From: Mycobacteriales bacterium
GTDB lineage: Bacteria; Actinomycetota; Actinomycetes; Mycobacteriales; QHCD01
Length of the DNA: 45,964 bases
Assembly (NCBI GenBank): GCA_036497565.1
Contig: DASXJE010000106.1
Coordinates: forward strand, 1 to 45,964
Reading direction: 5' to 3'
Below, piece by piece: positions 4,020-42,240 of the stretch (positions are counted from its first letter, which is position 1; each line of letters begins with the position of its first letter). Below the pieces are notes generated by a model. It ran no database searches. It was not told the origin of the DNA and saw nothing but the letters and a program-made list of their open reading frames with translations. The position numbers and the translations under genes are program-made.

Positions 4020-6164
4020 TCAGGTGCTGTGCTGGTCCGGGCTGTCCCAGTAGAAGCTCTCGGGGTCGTAGATCGCCGGGCACGGGACCTGCCACGGGTT
4101 GGTGATGCCCCCGGTGGCGAGGTTTTCGTGAGTGGGGACGTTGCGCAGAGCCGTCTTCGTGATCACGACGTTGGGGAAGTCGGCGACACACCCCATGAAG
4201 AACGGGCCGTCCTTGACGTGGATCTTCATCATTTCCCACACCAGCTGGGTGCGCTTCATGACGTCCGGCTCGCGCTTCGTCTTCGCGTAGAGCTTCCACA
4301 GCGCGGCGATCGGACCGCCGGCCTCGGGCTCCAACCGCGGAGGATGGCGCTTCCACGGGTTGACGTTCTTCTCGGTGTGCTCCTCCGGCGTACCGATCAC
4401 CGAGTAGTAGGAGCCCTCCAGCGGGGCCCACCGCGAGCTCTCGATCGGCACCAGCCACATCGGCGAGATCAGACAGGTCGCGCCGTTGCTCACCTCCCAG
4501 TTGGTGTGGGACATGAGCTGTCCGGCCGACCACTGGTCGCTGTAGGACTCCGGCGGGATCGGGCGTCGGACCATCTTGACGCCGATCTCCTTGGCGTTCT
4601 GCACCAGCTGGTCGTCCTTCGCCCCTTCGTTCTGGGCGATGTCGGCCGAGTAGTCGATGTCGATGCTCAGCTTGCTGCCGTCGGGAAACTCGACGTAACC
4701 GTCGTTGTCGGTGTCCTTGAGGCCGAGCTCGGCGAGCAGCGCCTTCGCCTTGCTCACGTCGTGCTTGATGTAGGAGTTCGCCCAGGTCTTGAAGGCCTGC
4801 TGACCGTCCGCGCCCTGGAATTCGAGCGACTTCACGCCGAGCGTGCCGGTCGTCTTCTGGCCCTGCTGGAAGTAGAGGGTCTTGCGGGCCCAGTCCCGGT
4901 CGAAGGCGTAGGAGAGCGCCCGCCGGAAACGCGCGTCGCGGAATAGCTTTCGCAGCTTCGCGTCGGGATAGTCATAGTTGAGGAAGAACATCGAACCGGT
5001 GCCGGATCCGCTGTCCCACAGGTTGATCTCGATGCCGGCCTTCTCCTTCGCCTGGCTCAAAGCAGACACGTCGGAGAGGTCGATCTGGTTGAACGGGCCG
5101 TGGCAGTAGTCGATCTTGCCCTGCTGCACCTGCAGTTTGCCCACCTGGGCGTCCTGCACGTTGTTGATGACGATCTCGTCAATGTAGGGCAGCTGGTCGC
5201 CGTCCTTGCTGACGACATAGTAGTAAGGGTTGCGCTCGAGTACGACGCCCTTGTTGTTGTCGAACGACTTGCACTTGTAGCCGATCATCGTGGGGCACTC
5301 GGGGTTGCGCATCCAGTCGGTCTTCTGCTCCCAGAGGCCACCGACGGAGTCCCAGTTCTTCGGGACACTCTTGTTGTACTTGGGGTGGAACTGCTTCGCG
5401 TAGTGCTTGGGCAGCACCCAGATCGCCCCGTTGAGGCCGATGGCGCCCTTCGCGTAGGACGCGAGGTGGCCGTCGACGATCGGCTGGGGTGCGTCGTAGC
5501 TCAGCTTCAGGGTCAGGTTGTCGACCTTCGACATCTTGCACAGCGTGCCGTTGGCCGACCGGCATGCGTCCGGGGGTGTCTGCGCGTAGTGGCCGGGGAT
5601 GATGATGTCCTCCCACCAGAACAGCACATCGTCGACGCTGAAGAGCGTGCCGTCCGACCACTTCAGGCCCTTACGGAAGTGCAGGGTCCACTCGGAGGCG
5701 TCGGCGTTGGACGACCAGGACTGCACGAGTCCCGGCGCGACATCGAGGCCGTCGTTGAGCCATCTCAGCGGGGAATGGCCGTAGAAGAACTCGCGGTTGG
5801 AGTCGGCCTTCGCGGTGCCCTGGCTCGAGAACACCATCATGTTGAGCGTGCCGCCGTACTTGCCCTGCTGGACCCAGTTGTGCGGGACGACAAGCGGAGT
5901 CTCCGGTAGCCGCTTCGCGACGGCCGGCATCTTGCCGGCCTTCGTCTGGCTGGCGAGCGTGGGTGCCTCATTGAAGCTCTTCGGAACGGAGAGCGGCTTC
6001 TTCGCCGAGCCTTTGGCGGTGCTCTCGGCGGAGTTGCTTCCCCCGCTCGAACTCGGGCTGGAGCTGCTGGTGCACGCGGTCAACATGGCGGAACCCGCCA
6101 CCGCCGCCGATCCATACAAGAACCTTCGCCGGGAAAGGCCTGCACCGATACTCACTGAATTCAT
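4020..6164 (-). CDS. Tat-exported lipoprotein, ABC transporter solute-binding protein family 5
   Basis: About 714 residues. The N-terminus has SRRRFLYG (twin-arginine signal) leading to a hydrophobic stretch and lipobox LTAC, then a Ser/Gly linker, so the product is expected to be a Tat-exported, membrane-anchored lipoprotein. The mature part has family 5 (oligopeptide/nickel) features such as [22 protein letters not shown] and [13 protein letters not shown]. It is longer than most members (500-600). No permease or ATPase gene is nearby, so partner and ligand are unknown. ATG 6164 lies right after AGAAGGG; GTG 6155 has better spacing to that site and would only trim three residues. Confidence 0.88.
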
Positions 6165-7019: not shown

Positions 7020-7101
7020 ACCGGCGGAGGCTACTGGATCCGCAGCAGCCCGCCAGCCGAGCACCCCACCCGGCTCCGCCCGTGGCACCGGTCGCCCCTG
7101 C

Positions 7102-7179
7102 CCAAAACCCACTACTAGTGGGTTTTGGACATCCGGTACGGCGTGTCGTGGACCAAAACCCACTACTAGTGGGTTTTGT
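7102..7179. repeat. palindrome module I (two 27-bp palindromes, 24-bp linker)
   Basis: Two palindromes, 7102-7128 and 7153-7179, have 11-nt arms CCAAAACCCAC / GTGGGTTTTGG around the 5-nt centre TACTA; the second ends GTTTTGT. They are separated by 24 nt containing GTACGGCGTGTCG. The second palindrome is extended outward by GTGGA / TCCAC. The module lies just upstream of nucS. It is too symmetric and too structured to be ordinary spacer and has no T-tract, so a simple terminator is unlikely. Confidence 0.9.
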
Positions 7180-7225
7180 CCACCCGGCAGCGGTTCGTGT
7201 CGCCGTACCGCGCGCCGGCCCCTGC

Positions 7226-7303
7226 CCAAAACGCACTCCTAGTGCGTTTTGGTCTGCGACACGCCGTACGGCGCCCCCATAACGCACTAGGAGTGCGTTT
7301 TGG
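7226..7303. repeat. palindrome module II, inverted copy of module I
   Basis: Two palindromes, 7226-7252 and 7277-7303, have arms CCAAAACGCAC / GTGCGTTTTGG and centres TCCTA and TAGGA; the last has one arm change (CCATAAC). The 24-nt linker contains CGACACGCCGTAC, the reverse complement of the module I linker core at the same offset. Module II is therefore an inverted copy of module I. Relative to module I, the C-G pair at arm position 8 is replaced by G-C in both arms of both palindromes. The sequence CCTGCCC or its complement lies outside palindromes 1, 3 and 4. Confidence 0.9.
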
Positions 7304-7347
7304 GCAGAGGGCATAGCGCAGGGGGCGTTTTCGGGGCGCGGGGGCGG

Positions 7348-28197: not shown

Positions 28198-28269
28198 CGG
28201 ATGTCCTTTCGTCGTGGTCGCCGGGTCGCCCGAATCGTGCTGGACGTGAACCGGAACCGATCTCCGTCA

Positions 28270-28350: not shown

Positions 28351-30336
28351 CTAGTCCTGGGGCGACATCGTCGTCGTCTTCTGCACCTGCATGAGGAATT
28401 CGACGTTGGTCGCCGTCTTCCGCAGCCGGTCCAGGACCAGTTCCAGCGCCTGCTGGGACTCCAGGGCGTGGAGCACCCGGCGGAGCTTGATCACGATCGC
28501 CAGCTCGTCCGGCGGGAGGAGGATCTCCTCCTTCCGGGTGCCGGACGGATCGATGTCGATCGCCGGGAACACCCGCTTGTCGGCCAGCCTGCGGTCGAGG
28601 TAGAGCTCGGCGTTGCCGGTGCCCTTGTACTCCTCGTAGATCACCGTGTCGCCGGTGGAGCCGGTCTGCACCAGCGCCGTGGCGAGGATGGTCAGGGACC
28701 CGCCGTTCTCGATGTTGCGGGCCGCGCCGAGGAAACGCTTCGGCGGGTAGAGGGCGGTCGAGTCGATACCACCGGAGAGGATCCGGCCGCTGGCCGGCGA
28801 CGCGTTGTTGTAGGCGCGCCCGAGCCGCGTGATCGAGTCGAGCAGGACGACCACGTCGTGGCCACTCTCGACCAGTCGCTTGGCCCGCTCGATCGCCAGC
28901 TCCGAGACCGTGGTGTGGTCCGACGGCGGCCGGTCGAAGGTCGAGGCGATGACCTCACCCTTCACCGACCGCTGCATGTCGGTGACTTCCTCAGGACGCT
29001 CGTCCACCAGGACGACCATGAGGTGGCACTCGGGGTTGTTGGTGGTGATGGCGTTGGCGATCGCCTGCAGCACCATCGTCTTGCCGGCCTTCGGCGGGCT
29101 GACGATGAGGGCACGCTGACCCTTGCCGATCGGCATCACCAGGTCGATCACCCGGGTGGTGAGCAGGTGAGGCTCGGTCTCGAGGCGCAACCGCTCCTGC
29201 GGGTAGAGCGGAGTCAGCTTGTGGAACTCCGGGCGCTTGCGCGCCTCGTCCGGCTCCAGCCCGTTGACCGTGTCGAGGCGGACGAGGGCGTTGTACTTGT
29301 CCCGCCGCTCCCCTTCGCGGGGCTGGCGGACCGCGCCGGTGATCGCGTCGCCGCGGCGCAGACCGTTTTTGCGGACCTGCGACAGCGAGACGTAGACGTC
29401 GTTCGGGCCGGTCAGGTAGCCCTGGGTCCGGACGAACGCGTAGTTGTCGAGGATGTCGAGGATCCCGGCGACCGGGAGCAGGACGTCGTCCTCGGCGATG
29501 ACGGGCTCGGGCTCGCCGCCGAAGCGGTCCCGTTGGCCACCACCGCCACCACCGCTGCGCCGCTGCCGATCGCGGAACCGGCCACGCCGCCGGCGACCGC
29601 CGCCACCGCCGTCGAAGTCGTCGTCGCGCTGCTGGTTGTCCGAACGCTGGTTATCGCGCTGGTTGTCCGAGCGCTGGTTGTCCGAGCGCTGGTTGTCCGA
29701 ACGCTGGTTGTCCGAACGCTGGTTGTCCGAGCGCTGGTTGTCGCGCTGCTGGTTGTCCCGCTGGCGGTTGTCCGACCGGCGCTGGTTGTCCGAGCGCTGG
29801 TTGTCCCGCTGCTGGTTGTCCGAGCGCTGGCTCTCGCCGCCGGCGCCCTCGCCTTGCGCGGCCGGCCGGTCGCCGGAGCTCGCGGCAGCGGGCTCGGGAC
29901 GGTCGGCGGCCTCCGGGCTGTCGGTCCGGTTGGACTGGTCGGCGGTCTCGGCGGGCGCGTCCGCTGCCGGTGACCCGGCCGGACGACGCGCGCTGCGGCG
30001 GCTCCGGCTGGGTGCCTCCCCAGCGGTCGCCGGCTGCGCCGAGGCGGCCGGAGCATCGGAGGATCCGCCCTGCTTGGCCTTGATGGCCGCGATCAGGTCG
30101 CTCTTTCGCATGCGACCGGTGTCCGCAATCCCGATGCTGCGTGCGAGCTCCTGGAGCTCGGCTAGCACCATTCCGGACAATCCGGCGCGGCGGCGGGGGC
30201 GGGACGCCCCGTCTACGGGGGCGGATTCCTCCCGTGCCGCAGAAGTTGATCGACCGGCGGAGCCGGTCGGTTGTGAAACGCCGCCCTGTGCCGCGGAGTC
30301 GGGCACATCGGTACGGACGTCGGTGATGTCGCTCAA
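28351..30336 (-). CDS. rho: transcription termination factor Rho with large disordered insert
   Basis: 661 residues against about 420 in E. coli. Rho N-domain helices are at 50-90 (LSGMVLAELQELARSIGIADTGRMRKSDLIAAIKA). A 180-residue low-complexity insert follows: Ala/Pro/Ser/Arg part, RSDNQ repeats (about 171-240), then Gly/Arg-rich (to 275). The RNA-binding cold-shock domain has GILDILDNYAFVRTQGYL. The ATPase core has Walker A PPKAGKT, VVLLVDERPEEV, and DSITRLGRAYN. TTG is the start, eight bases after AAGGA. Inserts of this sort are known in actinobacterial Rho (for example M. luteus) and affect RNA binding and termination. Confidence 0.97.
   Translation of the reverse strand: MSDITDVRTDVPDSAAQGGVSQPTGSAGRSTSAAREESAPVDGASRPRRRAGLSGMVLAELQELARSIGIADTGRMRKSDLIAAIKAKQGGSSDAPAASAQPATAGEAPSRSRRSARRPAGSPAADAPAETADQSNRTDSPEAADRPEPAAASSGDRPAAQGEGAGGESQRSDNQQRDNQRSDNQRRSDNRQRDNQQRDNQRSDNQRSDNQRSDNQRSDNQRSDNQRDNQRSDNQQRDDDFDGGGGGRRRRGRFRDRQRRSGGGGGGQRDRFGGEPEPVIAEDDVLLPVAGILDILDNYAFVRTQGYLTGPNDVYVSLSQVRKNGLRRGDAITGAVRQPREGERRDKYNALVRLDTVNGLEPDEARKRPEFHKLTPLYPQERLRLETEPHLLTTRVIDLVMPIGKGQRALIVSPPKAGKTMVLQAIANAITTNNPECHLMVVLVDERPEEVTDMQRSVKGEVIASTFDRPPSDHTTVSELAIERAKRLVESGHDVVVLLDSITRLGRAYNNASPASGRILSGGIDSTALYPPKRFLGAARNIENGGSLTILATALVQTGSTGDTVIYEEYKGTGNAELYLDRRLADKRVFPAIDIDPSGTRKEEILLPPDELAIVIKLRRVLHALESQQALELVLDRLRKTATNVEFLMQVQKTTTMSPQD
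29617..29826 (-). repeat. in-frame 15-bp repeat (RSDNQ) inside rho
   Basis: About fourteen units of CAACGCTCGGACAAC-type 15-bp sequence encode RSDNQ or the shorter RDNQ/QRDNQ variants. Five neighbouring units are identical at protein level. The reading frame is kept, and the other strand only mimics coding. Tandem structure suggests length variation between strains. Confidence 0.85.
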
Positions 30337-38813: not shown

Positions 38814-39329
38814 TTACCGGCCGCGGACCATCCGTAACTCCCAGAGGCCGGTGTCGGCGTCCACATCCCGCTCGCCATCGGGCGCGAAACCGTGCTTGCG
38901 GTAGAACTGGTGTGCCCTCGGGTTGTCCTCGAAGACCCAGAGGTGCGCGGCCTTGGTCCCGACGGCGCGGTCGAGGAGGTCTGCGGCGATCCCTGAGCCG
39001 CGGTACGCCGCCGCGACGTACAGGCTCTTCAGCTCGAGCGGTGGCGCCGACCCGGCGTCGCGGCTCCGCGCCCAGCTGACGACGCCCACGATCTGTCCGC
39101 CCACCTCGGCGACGACGGCCCGGCGGCCGCCGTTGACCAGCCGGTCGCGCCACCGGACCGCCCGGTCGTCGACGTCGACACGGTCCAGGTAGTCCTGCGG
39201 AACCAGCCCCCGGTAGGCCTCCCGCCAGCACCGGGTGTGGAACTGCGCGATCGACCGGCTGTCCGACACCTGCGCGGCCCGAAGGGTCGCGCGCACGTCC
39301 TCGTCGTCCGCCCGTTGCTCAGTCGTCAC
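38814..39329 (-). CDS. GNAT family N-acetyltransferase
   Basis: 171 residues. GNAT core: GGQIVGVVSWARSRD, LYVAAAYRGSGIAADLLDRAV (acetyl-CoA binding motif A with R-G-S-G-I-A), and LWVFEDNPRAHQFYRKHGF (motif B). The substrate is unknown. GTG 39329 was chosen; extension upstream translates only the repeat element, giving NVTFKRN-like spurious peptide. Confidence 0.9.
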   Translation of the reverse strand: MTTEQRADDEDVRATLRAAQVSDSRSIAQFHTRCWREAYRGLVPQDYLDRVDVDDRAVRWRDRLVNGGRRAVVAEVGGQIVGVVSWARSRDAGSAPPLELKSLYVAAAYRGSGIAADLLDRAVGTKAAHLWVFEDNPRAHQFYRKHGFAPDGERDVDADTGLWELRMVRGR

Positions 39330-39361
39330 GCCGGTCAGTTTCGCACCTGTCGCCGACCATC

Positions 39362-39424
39362 CATTCCGCTTGAACGTCACGTTCAAGCGGTCTAGCCGCA
39401 TCAACGTCACGTTGGCGCGGAATA
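39362..39424. repeat. 63-bp composite palindromic repeat, left copy
   Basis: Outer arms ATTCCGC / GCGGAAT enclose a hairpin CGCTTGAACGT-C-ACGTTCAAGCG and a second AACGTCACGTT core. It lies 33 bp upstream of the GNAT start and 145 bp before the amine oxidase start. The right copy (41212-41274) is in the same orientation; 54 of 63 positions match. Confidence 0.9.
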
Positions 39425-39569
39425 GGAGATGGCCGACGTCGGCGTACACGCGGGTGCGACGAGTCGCATCGTTAACAGTGGGGCAATTGTCGGACACGTC
39501 CCTGCAATACCGAAAGACCACCATGGGCCGCTCAGTCGGGGTACGGCGCACAACCCACGGAGGACCCAC

Positions 39570-41192
39570 ATGCCGCAGCCATCAGCACCTGGGCTCAGTC
39601 GACGAAAGTTCCTGCAGGCCGTCGGAGTCACCGGCGGCGCCGGGACGATGCTGTCGGCCATGGGGACGCTGGGACTCGCCCCGACGGCCGCCGACGCGGC
39701 GACGCCCGCGTTCACCCCTCCGCAGGCCTCGGACTTCCATCTCTCCGGGCGCAACGCCGGCAGCGTCATCATCCTCGGCGGCGGAGTCGCTGGGCTCGTC
39801 TCGGCGTACGAGCTGGGCAAGGCGGGCTACCGGTGCTCGATCCTCGAACCGCGCAGCCGGACCGGAGGGCGCAACTTCACCGCGCGGGCGGGTACCGAGC
39901 AGACCGACCTCTTCGGGCAGCGTCAGGTGGCGAAGTTCAGTGCGGGCCAGTACGTGAACTGCGGCCCCGCGCGACTGGCCCAATGGATGGTCACCCTCGA
40001 CTACTGCCGCGAACTCGGGGTGCCGATCGAGGTCTTCACCAACTCCAACGCCGACGCTTACATCTACAACGAGAACTCCGGGATGACGCCGGGCAACCCC
40101 ATGCGCTACCGCACCGCCAAGGCCGACGTCTACGGATACGTCGCCGAGCTTCTCGCCAAGGCGAGCTCGCAGGGTGCCCTGGACCAGGAGCTCACCGCGG
40201 TGGACCAGGAACGCCTGCTGTCCTTCCTCGAGGGATGGGGAGACATCGGCGCCAAGTCGGACGGTTACGCCTACACCGGGAGCACCCGCCGGGGCTACGA
40301 CCCGTATCCGGGCGCCGCCGGAGCACCCGGCTCACCGCTGTCCCCGACACCCGACGTCTCCGCCGTCTTCGCTTCGGCGGTCGGCCGGTACTTCGCGTTC
40401 GAATTCGAGTTCGACCAGGCGATGCTGATGTTCCAGCCGGTCGGCGGAATGGACCAGATTCCCCAGGCGCTGACCCGCGCGATCGGGCCGGAGAAGGTCA
40501 AGCTGGGTGCTCAGGCGACGGGGATCACCCAGGCCGACGACGGGGTACGGGTCACCTACCGGGACGACGGCGGGCGCGAGCACGAAATCCGCGCGGACTA
40601 CTGCATATCCGCAATGCCGCCGCATCTTCTCGCTCGGCTCCCGCACAACCTCGGCGACGACGTGCAGACGGCTCTGACCTCGATCACGCCGTCGTCGTCG
40701 AGCAAGATCGGTCTGGAGTACAAGAGCCGCTGGTGGGAAACCGACCACCGGATCTACGGCGGCATCACCGAGACCGACATGGATCTGGCCCACGTCTGGC
40801 ACCCGTCGTACGGCTACCACGGTGAGCGCGGCGTCATCGTCGGCTACTACAACACCGGCTCGGACGCCGACACCTACGGAAAGATGACGCCCAAGCAGCG
40901 TGCGGACCGGGCGGTGATGCTCGGCGAGCGGATCTACGGACCGAAGTACCGCACCGAGTTGGCGTCATCCTTCTCCCAGTCCTGGCGCTACATCCCGCAC
41001 CTGGAAGGCGCCTGGCACAGCCTGCCGGACAACACGCCGGATGCGCCGGTCCTCAAGCCGTTGGCAAAGCCGGCTGGACGGGTTCTCTTCGCCGGCGACT
41101 GGCTCTCCTACATGGACGCCTGGCAGCACGGCGCGATCCTGTCCGCACGAGAGGCCGTGACGGCGCTGCACGCACGCGCGCTCACGCACTGA
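39570..41192 (+). CDS. Tat-exported flavin amine oxidase
   Basis: 540 residues. N-terminal twin-arginine signal LSRRKFLQAVGVTGGAG, ending near ADAATP. FAD-binding dinucleotide site VIILGGGVAGLVSAYELGKAGYRC with the GGRN motif, substrate region FEFEFDQAMLMFQPVGGMDQIPQAL, and C-terminal FAGDWLSYMDAWQHGAILSA (FAD contact). It matches the monoamine oxidase / L-amino acid oxidase family; substrate unknown. ATG 39570 has GGAGG 7 bases upstream. Flanked by direct composite repeats, alone on its strand. Confidence 0.93.
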   Translation: MPQPSAPGLSRRKFLQAVGVTGGAGTMLSAMGTLGLAPTAADAATPAFTPPQASDFHLSGRNAGSVIILGGGVAGLVSAYELGKAGYRCSILEPRSRTGGRNFTARAGTEQTDLFGQRQVAKFSAGQYVNCGPARLAQWMVTLDYCRELGVPIEVFTNSNADAYIYNENSGMTPGNPMRYRTAKADVYGYVAELLAKASSQGALDQELTAVDQERLLSFLEGWGDIGAKSDGYAYTGSTRRGYDPYPGAAGAPGSPLSPTPDVSAVFASAVGRYFAFEFEFDQAMLMFQPVGGMDQIPQALTRAIGPEKVKLGAQATGITQADDGVRVTYRDDGGREHEIRADYCISAMPPHLLARLPHNLGDDVQTALTSITPSSSSKIGLEYKSRWWETDHRIYGGITETDMDLAHVWHPSYGYHGERGVIVGYYNTGSDADTYGKMTPKQRADRAVMLGERIYGPKYRTELASSFSQSWRYIPHLEGAWHSLPDNTPDAPVLKPLAKPAGRVLFAGDWLSYMDAWQHGAILSAREAVTALHARALTH

Positions 41193-41211
41193 CGGCTGGC
41201 CGCCGCCCCTT

Positions 41212-41274
41212 CATTCGGCTTGAACGTCACGTTCAAGGCATCTAGCGGCATCAACGTCACGTTGATGCCGAATG
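41212..41274. repeat. 63-bp composite palindromic repeat, right copy
   Basis: Outer arms CATTCGGC / GCCGAATG, inner hairpins CTTGAACGT-C-ACGTTCAAG and GGCATCAACGT-C-ACGTTGATGCC. The outer arm differs from the left copy by C to G paired with G to C on the other side. It begins 20 bp after the oxidase stop and ends 24 bp before the convergent kinase stop. Confidence 0.9.
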
Positions 41275-41298: not shown

Positions 41299-42240
41299 TC
41301 AGAGCAGCTGCTCGGCGGTGGTCAGATGCGGCCGGCCGAGTTCTTCGCCACCGACCTGCAGCGCGTACAGCCCGGTCGACACCCGTTCCAGGAAGCCCCA
41401 CTCCCAGATCGCCGTCTCGTCCATTCCGGTACGGGTCGCCATCAGCCGGCTGTAGCGGCGGGCCAGGATCTGTGGCTCGGCCGCCGCCTGCAACTCCGGG
41501 CACCAGTCGCGCAGCGCCACGCCGAGGTCATACGTCGGGTCGCCGACGAACCCGTCCGGGTCGACGAAGACGAAGCCGGACTCCGCACCCGGGCGGGGCA
41601 GGTTCGTGCGCAGCGCGTTGGCCGGCGCCGCATCCCCGTGTACGACGACGCACCGACCGGCGTCGAAGGCGGCCGCACGGCGCGCCGCGAACTCCAGTGC
41701 CCGCGAGACCACCTGTTCAGGACAGGGCCGGTCGAGCTCCTCCCACAGCCCGGCGACCGACGAGGCGAGTGCACTCGCCTTGTCCATTGCCGGATCGGCC
41801 GACGGGTCGGTGTCCCGCGGGACCTCCCATGCCCGGCGCAGCAGGTCGCAGAGGATCTCGATCTGAGACTCGGGTGAGAGGCCGCTCCGATTCAGCGTCG
41901 GTCCGAGCGCCTCGAGCAGCATGGCCCGGCGGTCCGGGTCGTGGGCGTAGAGCTCGACGTAGCCGCGCCCGCGGGCCGCCGCGATCGTGCGCACCTCGCG
42001 GGCGAAGAGCGGGTCGGGGAGACACACCTTGACGACCGCGTCCGTCCCGTCGGGCTTACGGGCCATCGCGACGTAGCCGGTGAACCCTCCCCCGAGCGGC
42101 TCCCCGACCTGGATCGACCACGCCTTCTCGAGCTCGGCGATCAGGTCGGTCAACCCGGCGAGCCAGTCCTCGCCAGCCGCGCCGAGGTGCAGCGCCTTCT
42201 GCCGGACGACCGGCGACACGGTCCGCTCCCGATCGGTCAT
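41299..42240 (-). CDS. aminoglycoside/hydroxyurea phosphotransferase family protein (APH(6)-like)
   Basis: 313 residues. Kinase motifs: VVVHGDAAPANAL (HGDxxxxN catalytic loop) and FVFVDPDGFVGDPTYDLGVAL (DPDGFVGDP metal motif). The end fits APH_6_hur, the streptomycin 6-kinase-like family. Whether it modifies streptomycin or a metabolite is unknown. ATG 42240 is preceded by GGAGG at eight bases. It converges on the amine oxidase. Confidence 0.88.
   Translation of the reverse strand: MTDRERTVSPVVRQKALHLGAAGEDWLAGLTDLIAELEKAWSIQVGEPLGGGFTGYVAMARKPDGTDAVVKVCLPDPLFAREVRTIAAARGRGYVELYAHDPDRRAMLLEALGPTLNRSGLSPESQIEILCDLLRRAWEVPRDTDPSADPAMDKASALASSVAGLWEELDRPCPEQVVSRALEFAARRAAAFDAGRCVVVHGDAAPANALRTNLPRPGAESGFVFVDPDGFVGDPTYDLGVALRDWCPELQAAAEPQILARRYSRLMATRTGMDETAIWEWGFLERVSTGLYALQVGGEELGRPHLTTAEQLL

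Follow-up and report, generated by a model that had tools for sequence, protein, structure and literature searches.

What do two nearly alike 63-bp nested palindromes on either side of a flavin amine oxidase gene stand for: a pair that moves the gene between them, or two members of a repeat family that have come to lie one gene apart? Both possibilities had been raised in an earlier note on the window (the whole 45,964-nucleotide stretch of DNA that was analysed), with regulator sites or MITEs as the kinds of repeat that such a family might be. The pair itself is real, alignment giving 54 of 63 positions identical in the same orientation and confirming, in each copy, two cores within hairpins plus an outer inverted arm. 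Exact AACGTCACGTT cores occur twice per copy at a start to start distance of 30 bp, the 32-33 bp first given being slightly off, and the window has nine core matches with at most one mismatch against 0.58 expected in shuffles. Folding of both copies, as DNA or as RNA, gives z values of about -5 to -6 relative to shuffles. The oxidase, whose start reads SRRKFLQ and is Tat-like by its sequence, is indeed the sole gene between the copies (Table 1). Copy 1 lies in the gap from which the GNAT gene and the oxidase gene diverge, an exceptional position for its family, and copy 2, where the oxidase gene and the APH-like gene converge with their 3' ends, is a typical convergent member. On the minus strand the GNAT frame stays open upstream across copy 1 (38814-39569; FRANVTLMRLDRLNVTFKRNG), and an alternative upstream GNAT start would read in frame through the repeat; at 63 bp the repeat is a multiple of three and so in-frame insertion is possible, as in Rickettsia palindromic elements.

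Table 1. Coordinates of repeats, repeat parts and neighbouring genes in the window
Feature	Position	Strand	Remarks
Family 2a, two AAAACCCACTACTAGTGGGTTTT hairpins 51 bp apart	7095..7185	+	
Family 2b variant, AACGCACTCCTAGTGCGTT hairpins, adjoining 2a	7215..7312	-	
GNAT acetyltransferase gene	38814..39329	-	start 33 bp from copy 1
Family-1 repeat, copy 1	39362..39424	+	covariance model 94.3 bits, E 4e-23
Outer left arm of copy 1, ATTCCGC	39363..39369	+	pairs with GCGGAAT at 39417-39423
Hairpin A of copy 1 (TTGAACGTCACGTTCAA)	39370..39386	+	
Hairpin B of copy 1 (TCAACGTCACGTTGG)	39401..39415	+	
Outer right arm of copy 1, GCGGAAT	39417..39423	+	
Flavin amine oxidase gene	39570..41192	+	PF01593, 2e-38; ATG at 39570
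Family-1 repeat, copy 2, type-2 variant ATTCGGC/GCCGAAT	41212..41274	+	covariance model 85.9 bits, E 1e-20
Hairpin A of copy 2	41220..41236	+	
Hairpin B of copy 2 (ATCAACGTCACGTTGAT)	41250..41266	+	
APH-like kinase gene	41299..42240	-	3' end about 25 bp from copy 2

The two copies belong to an independent family (family 1) dispersed over the window's own genome (4.8 Mb, 316 contigs, 97.8% complete), as the earlier note had allowed. A search of that genome for paired cores found the exact two-core pattern at 26 places, with none in 40 relatives, and a covariance model built from these 26 places (full copies scoring above 60 bits, better strand) returned 44 full copies in both orientations, the next matches reaching 26 bits at most; with several copies situated at contig ends, 44 is a minimum. 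AACGTSACGTT occurs 86 times genome-wide against once for the reversed control, and 79 of the 86 motifs fall within full copies, singles being rare. Mean pairwise identity is 89%, two pairs are identical, and conservation extends over the full 63 bp. The covariance model found no true members in 199 other sampled genomes of the order, none of them of the same genus, and a match of 31.7 bits in genome G193 was excluded as a member by its sequence. An exact two-core scan of 84,980 species, a set from which own-genome records were possibly left out, gave no members either, the 19 places found being tandem or other repeats; phage, plasmid and viral-contig collections held no family-1 members, and Rfam gave no match at gathering score or at E<=1. 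AACGTCACGTT is also found in unrelated repeats of rumen Firmicutes (for example GGATGGAACGTCACGTTCCCGCGG), the carriers being Ruminococcus MAGs (L035, L039, L042-L045) and Clostridiales MAGs (L032-L034, L037, L040), and there it is probably convergent. Elsewhere in the window tandem 15-bp repeats (29614-29852) lie within a minus-strand gene (28351-30171) beside which an L31-Actinobacteria leader is located (28216-28260), and a 27-bp periodic repeat (1372-1795) lies within a called plus-strand gene (1023-2018). It is by this leader and by the overall character of the genes that the host is assigned to the actinobacteria.

The family-1 consensus reads CATTCCGC-TTGAACGTCACGTTCAA-GCGCTCTAGCCGC-ATCAACGTCACGTTGAC-GCGGAATG; two palindromic units of 32 bp form an inverted doublet around TCTAG, in other words a palindrome of palindromes, and this doublet is the unit of the family. 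Its most conserved part is the two 11-bp cores, with a centre that is nearly always C or G. Joint and hairpin features were read from an alignment of 42 copies, and the share of paired cells is 90% when the element is drawn as two hairpins in tandem, 93% as a clover made of the outer arms plus a short arm in the middle, and 81% as one long hairpin. Paired changes are found at columns 9-61, 9-31, 39-61, 31-39, 44-56 and 12-28, and doubly changed cells outnumber those in each of 500 shuffles and in every slid control. The paired C-G to G-C change noticed earlier in the outer arm is real and recurs in the family, with 32 copies C-G, 6 changed on both sides and 4 unpaired. Columns 9, 31, 39 and 61 tend to covary as type 1 (CCGC/GCGG) or type 2 (CGGC/GCCG), and because they change together they support the nested and the tandem folds alike. 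The compensatory outer arm therefore holds true, yet the three-way junction suggested for each copy is one possible fold of three, which the covariation neither cleanly separates nor proves. Hybrid type-1/type-2 copies exist, for example at C208 and C307, and suggest recombination between copies.

Placement relative to genes is strongly biased. With genes called by a simple, home-made codon-usage caller and gap expectations derived from intergenic bases in 386 kb sampled without bias from this genome, the 31 occupied gaps comprise 15 convergent, 14 tandem and 2 divergent against 3.4, 16.6 and 11.0 expected (convergent excess p 2e-7, divergent depletion p 2e-4), copy 1 having been assigned manually to the divergent gaps, since the caller ran GNAT on across it. 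A gene 3' end lies within 50 bp of 28 of the 44 copies, the copy in single-copy tandem gaps is mostly closer to the end of the upstream gene, and orientation relative to the adjoining gene is mixed. The genes with 3' ends by copies are diverse (phosphofructokinase, PheRS beta chain, ABC ATPases, glyoxalase-like proteins, a glycosidase), and no common function was found among the genes flanking the copies. Some gaps hold two to three copies (C18 twice, C287, C37, C133, C17, C231 and C311), and neighbouring copies can share rare changes, such as AACGGCACGTT at C18:32855 and 33113. In element orientation the roughly 20 bp to the left are C-rich (46% C, 30% G) and those to the right G-rich (47% G, 28% C). 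Insertion into pre-existing hairpins was considered for these flanks, which seem complementary on inspection, and rejected, own-pair flank complementarity being 11.09 against 11.08 in shuffled pairs (z 0.03), and such equality leaves a composition bias alone. In one further locus (L086:4752-5955, that is G000:C150) inverted family-1 copies enclose an open reading frame of some 325 aa that has no Pfam match, and the flanks of the copy at 4752 (CCGTCCCC/GGGGGACGG) lengthen its palindrome.

Taken together the repeats are probably dispersed, non-coding REP-doublet elements with a BIME- or REPIN-like layout, copied by way of their structure and kept behind genes, and we hold this reading with reasonable confidence. 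An identity of 89% across unrelated loci requires a copy-and-spread process. Family 1 would then be mobile, spreading by a DNA-structure-based copying that could use a folded single strand or a cruciform, and local tandem duplication or conversion may provide a second route, because rare variants recur in neighbouring copies. Insertions into genes or promoters would mostly be lost, and an element behind a gene would be harmless or perhaps useful as a two-way 3'-end structure, for transcription stop or for mRNA end protection. Insertion preference, loss of harmful copies and use at 3' ends can each give the placement seen, and the data do not separate them. A search with PF01797 for a Y1/RAYT transposase gave no matches in the 316 contigs of the own genome, where a gene could have been missed, and the controls of that search, E. 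coli among them, gave matches.

Bacterial MITEs, Correia elements for instance, are small and non-coding, with inverted ends and many copies, and a classical MITE, as non-autonomous kin of a DDE-type insertion sequence moved via its terminal inverted repeats, would account for the inverted ends CATTCCGC/GCGGAATG, for the lack of coding capacity and for some 44 dispersed copies. Here, however, the short target duplications sought beside the copies are lacking in a scan of family-1 boundaries, none standing above permutations for any boundary around both ends or any length (2-10, maximum at >=4), and no matching partner transposon was recognised. Solitary half-units or ends are also few, and no larger element was recognised among the part of them inspected, in a draft assembly from which a multi-copy IS may be missing. 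Palindromes built as a whole-unit doublet and a bias to 3' ends are moreover typical of REPs, and the MITE identity proposed in the earlier note seems to us rather unlikely.

The conservation of the 11-bp cores and of their C or G centre is what dispersed operators would show, were a regulator to bind paired AACGTSACGTT and so define a regulon. Divergent promoter gaps are avoided (2 of 31), however, and convergent ones favoured, with copies at 3' ends; the flanking genes are without a common function, and it is the whole 63-bp unit, well beyond the cores, that is about 89% identical, all of which makes regulator sites improbable. Still less probable is that these are ordinary transcription terminators grown alike through selection alone, without copying. 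Their 3'-end placement, strong hairpins and occurrence in both orientations suit that view, but identity at 89% over 63 bp including unpaired positions, the identical pairs and a sequence confined to the lineage require copying, and the majority of 3' ends in the genome sample have no repeat. No T-run follows the hairpins and neither window copy has a terminator-like site, which sets the copies apart from textbook intrinsic terminators. Selection alone is thus already contradicted by the sequence identity, although a terminator role taken on after copying may exist. That a direct-repeat cassette mobilises the oxidase is scarcely credible: the gene does stand alone between same-orientation copies, is rare (3 of 61 sampled genomes, its own included) and has a counterpart in the C150 gene bracketed by inverted copies, but the repeats occur genome-wide with no tie to one cargo gene, the other 42 full copies flanking unrelated genes, mostly alone and bracketing nothing, several sharing one gap and none with a target duplication, a relative of the oxidase (49-51% identity) lies between other genes in G045, which has no family-1 members, and a pair one gene apart is expected from about 44 clustered copies behind genes, so that the family of 44 accounts for two neighbouring copies and no cassette is needed. 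The pair in the window is best read as two insertions of the dispersed REP-like family one gene apart, the oxidase being a neighbour and not a cargo, and for annotation the oxidase-flanking repeats are explained as dispersed repeats rather than as a cassette.

Family 1 is mostly of a known kind, and what is less ordinary is that no Y1 transposase is detectable and that a second, similarly built family exists in the same genome. The family-2 unit has two AAAACSCACTNSNAGTGSGTTTT hairpins, which lie 51 bp apart in the orientation where the conserved spacer, CGGCGTGTCG, reads forward. Its outer arms are TGGAC/GTCCA in 2a and CTGACC/GGTCA in 2b, the hairpins carry CCCACT/AGTGGG and CGCACT/AGTGCG respectively, and 2a often lies beside 2b; examples are found at 7095-7312 of the window and in stretches L115-L134. 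The own genome has about 103 family-2 hairpins, the 199 others from the order none, and like family 1 these hairpins lie largely behind genes. The two families are unrelated in sequence and have a common layout of outer arms, two equal hairpins and a spacer arm; a third high-copy hairpin family was not found in about 770 kb. In 22 oriented family-2 elements, loop triplets come in reverse-complementary forms (ACT/AGT, CCT/AGG, CCG/CGG), loop orientation being independent at the two hairpins of an element, and inversion of a whole hairpin explains such multi-base pairs more easily than point changes do. Family-1 hairpin loops, with their C or G centre, also occur in both orientations. It is as if single hairpins flip through extruded cruciforms, and the family-2 loops would suggest that DNA adopts hairpin or cruciform structures inside the cell; if true, such flips would have left a natural trace of cruciforms being extruded in vivo. 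It is a tentative proposal, and to us possible rather than probable, that the lineage carries a RAYT-independent double-hairpin mobile DNA in which one hairpin-processing activity spreads both families. Two lineage-restricted double-hairpin families without a detectable Y1 transposase raise the question of what else could copy such hairpins.

How then does family 1 compare with known repeat systems? Mitochondrial double-hairpin elements of fungi and algae also combine a pair of hairpins in a single small unit that looks mobile, but their hosts are organelles and their sequence is unrelated. We know of no sequence relation between family 1 and REPINs. The 3'-end placement, dimer form and clover or hairpin folds of family 1 are alike in published REPs (PMC3733652, PMC3116915), and family 1 agrees with REPs in the broad sense in having palindromic units (32 bp, within the usual 20-40 bp) in many dispersed copies (about 44 doublets) that are intergenic behind genes, in convergent and tandem gaps (15 and 14) against 2 divergent ones. 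In REPINs (Bertels and Rainey 2011, PMC3116915), too, what is dispersed is an inverted palindromic doublet that shows compensatory changes, can fold as a long hairpin or as a clover, and occurs outside genes and in tandem clusters, and as expected of a REPIN the doublet is the conserved unit of family 1, with singles rare or decayed (79 of 86 motifs lie in full copies). REPINs are, however, linked to a RAYT Y1 transposase gene that the repeats flank, and family 1 occurs in an actinobacterium in whose 316-contig draft PF01797 detected no RAYT. GTAG-REPs and BIMEs (PMC3733652) are likewise short 3'-end palindromes, commonly dimeric, in gaps whose flanking genes converge or run in the same direction, but GTAG-REPs have an unpaired GTAG (GTRG) at the hairpin foot, where the joint of family 1 is CTAG or CTAT (42 copies), with no RAYT. 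CGTC-REPs (PMC3733652) resemble family 1 in being mainly head-to-head dimers without a dedicated transposase and in their 3'-end placement; they have an unpaired terminal CGTC tag, a stem of 8-9 bp and a loop of 4-5 bases and are reported from other phyla, whereas in family 1 CGTC lies inside the hairpin stem or loop, loops are of 3 bases and the possible stems are longer. REP-like doublets are usually tied to a RAYT, or are CGTC families mainly of alpha-Proteobacteria, and the survey describing them does not mention Actinobacteria (PMC3733652); no description of actinobacterial REPs was found among the open papers searched, though an earlier report elsewhere is possible. With a REP-like layout but neither the GTAG or CGTC tags nor a RAYT, family 1 is thus a REP in the broad sense, and not a REPIN, a GTAG-REP or a CGTC-REP.
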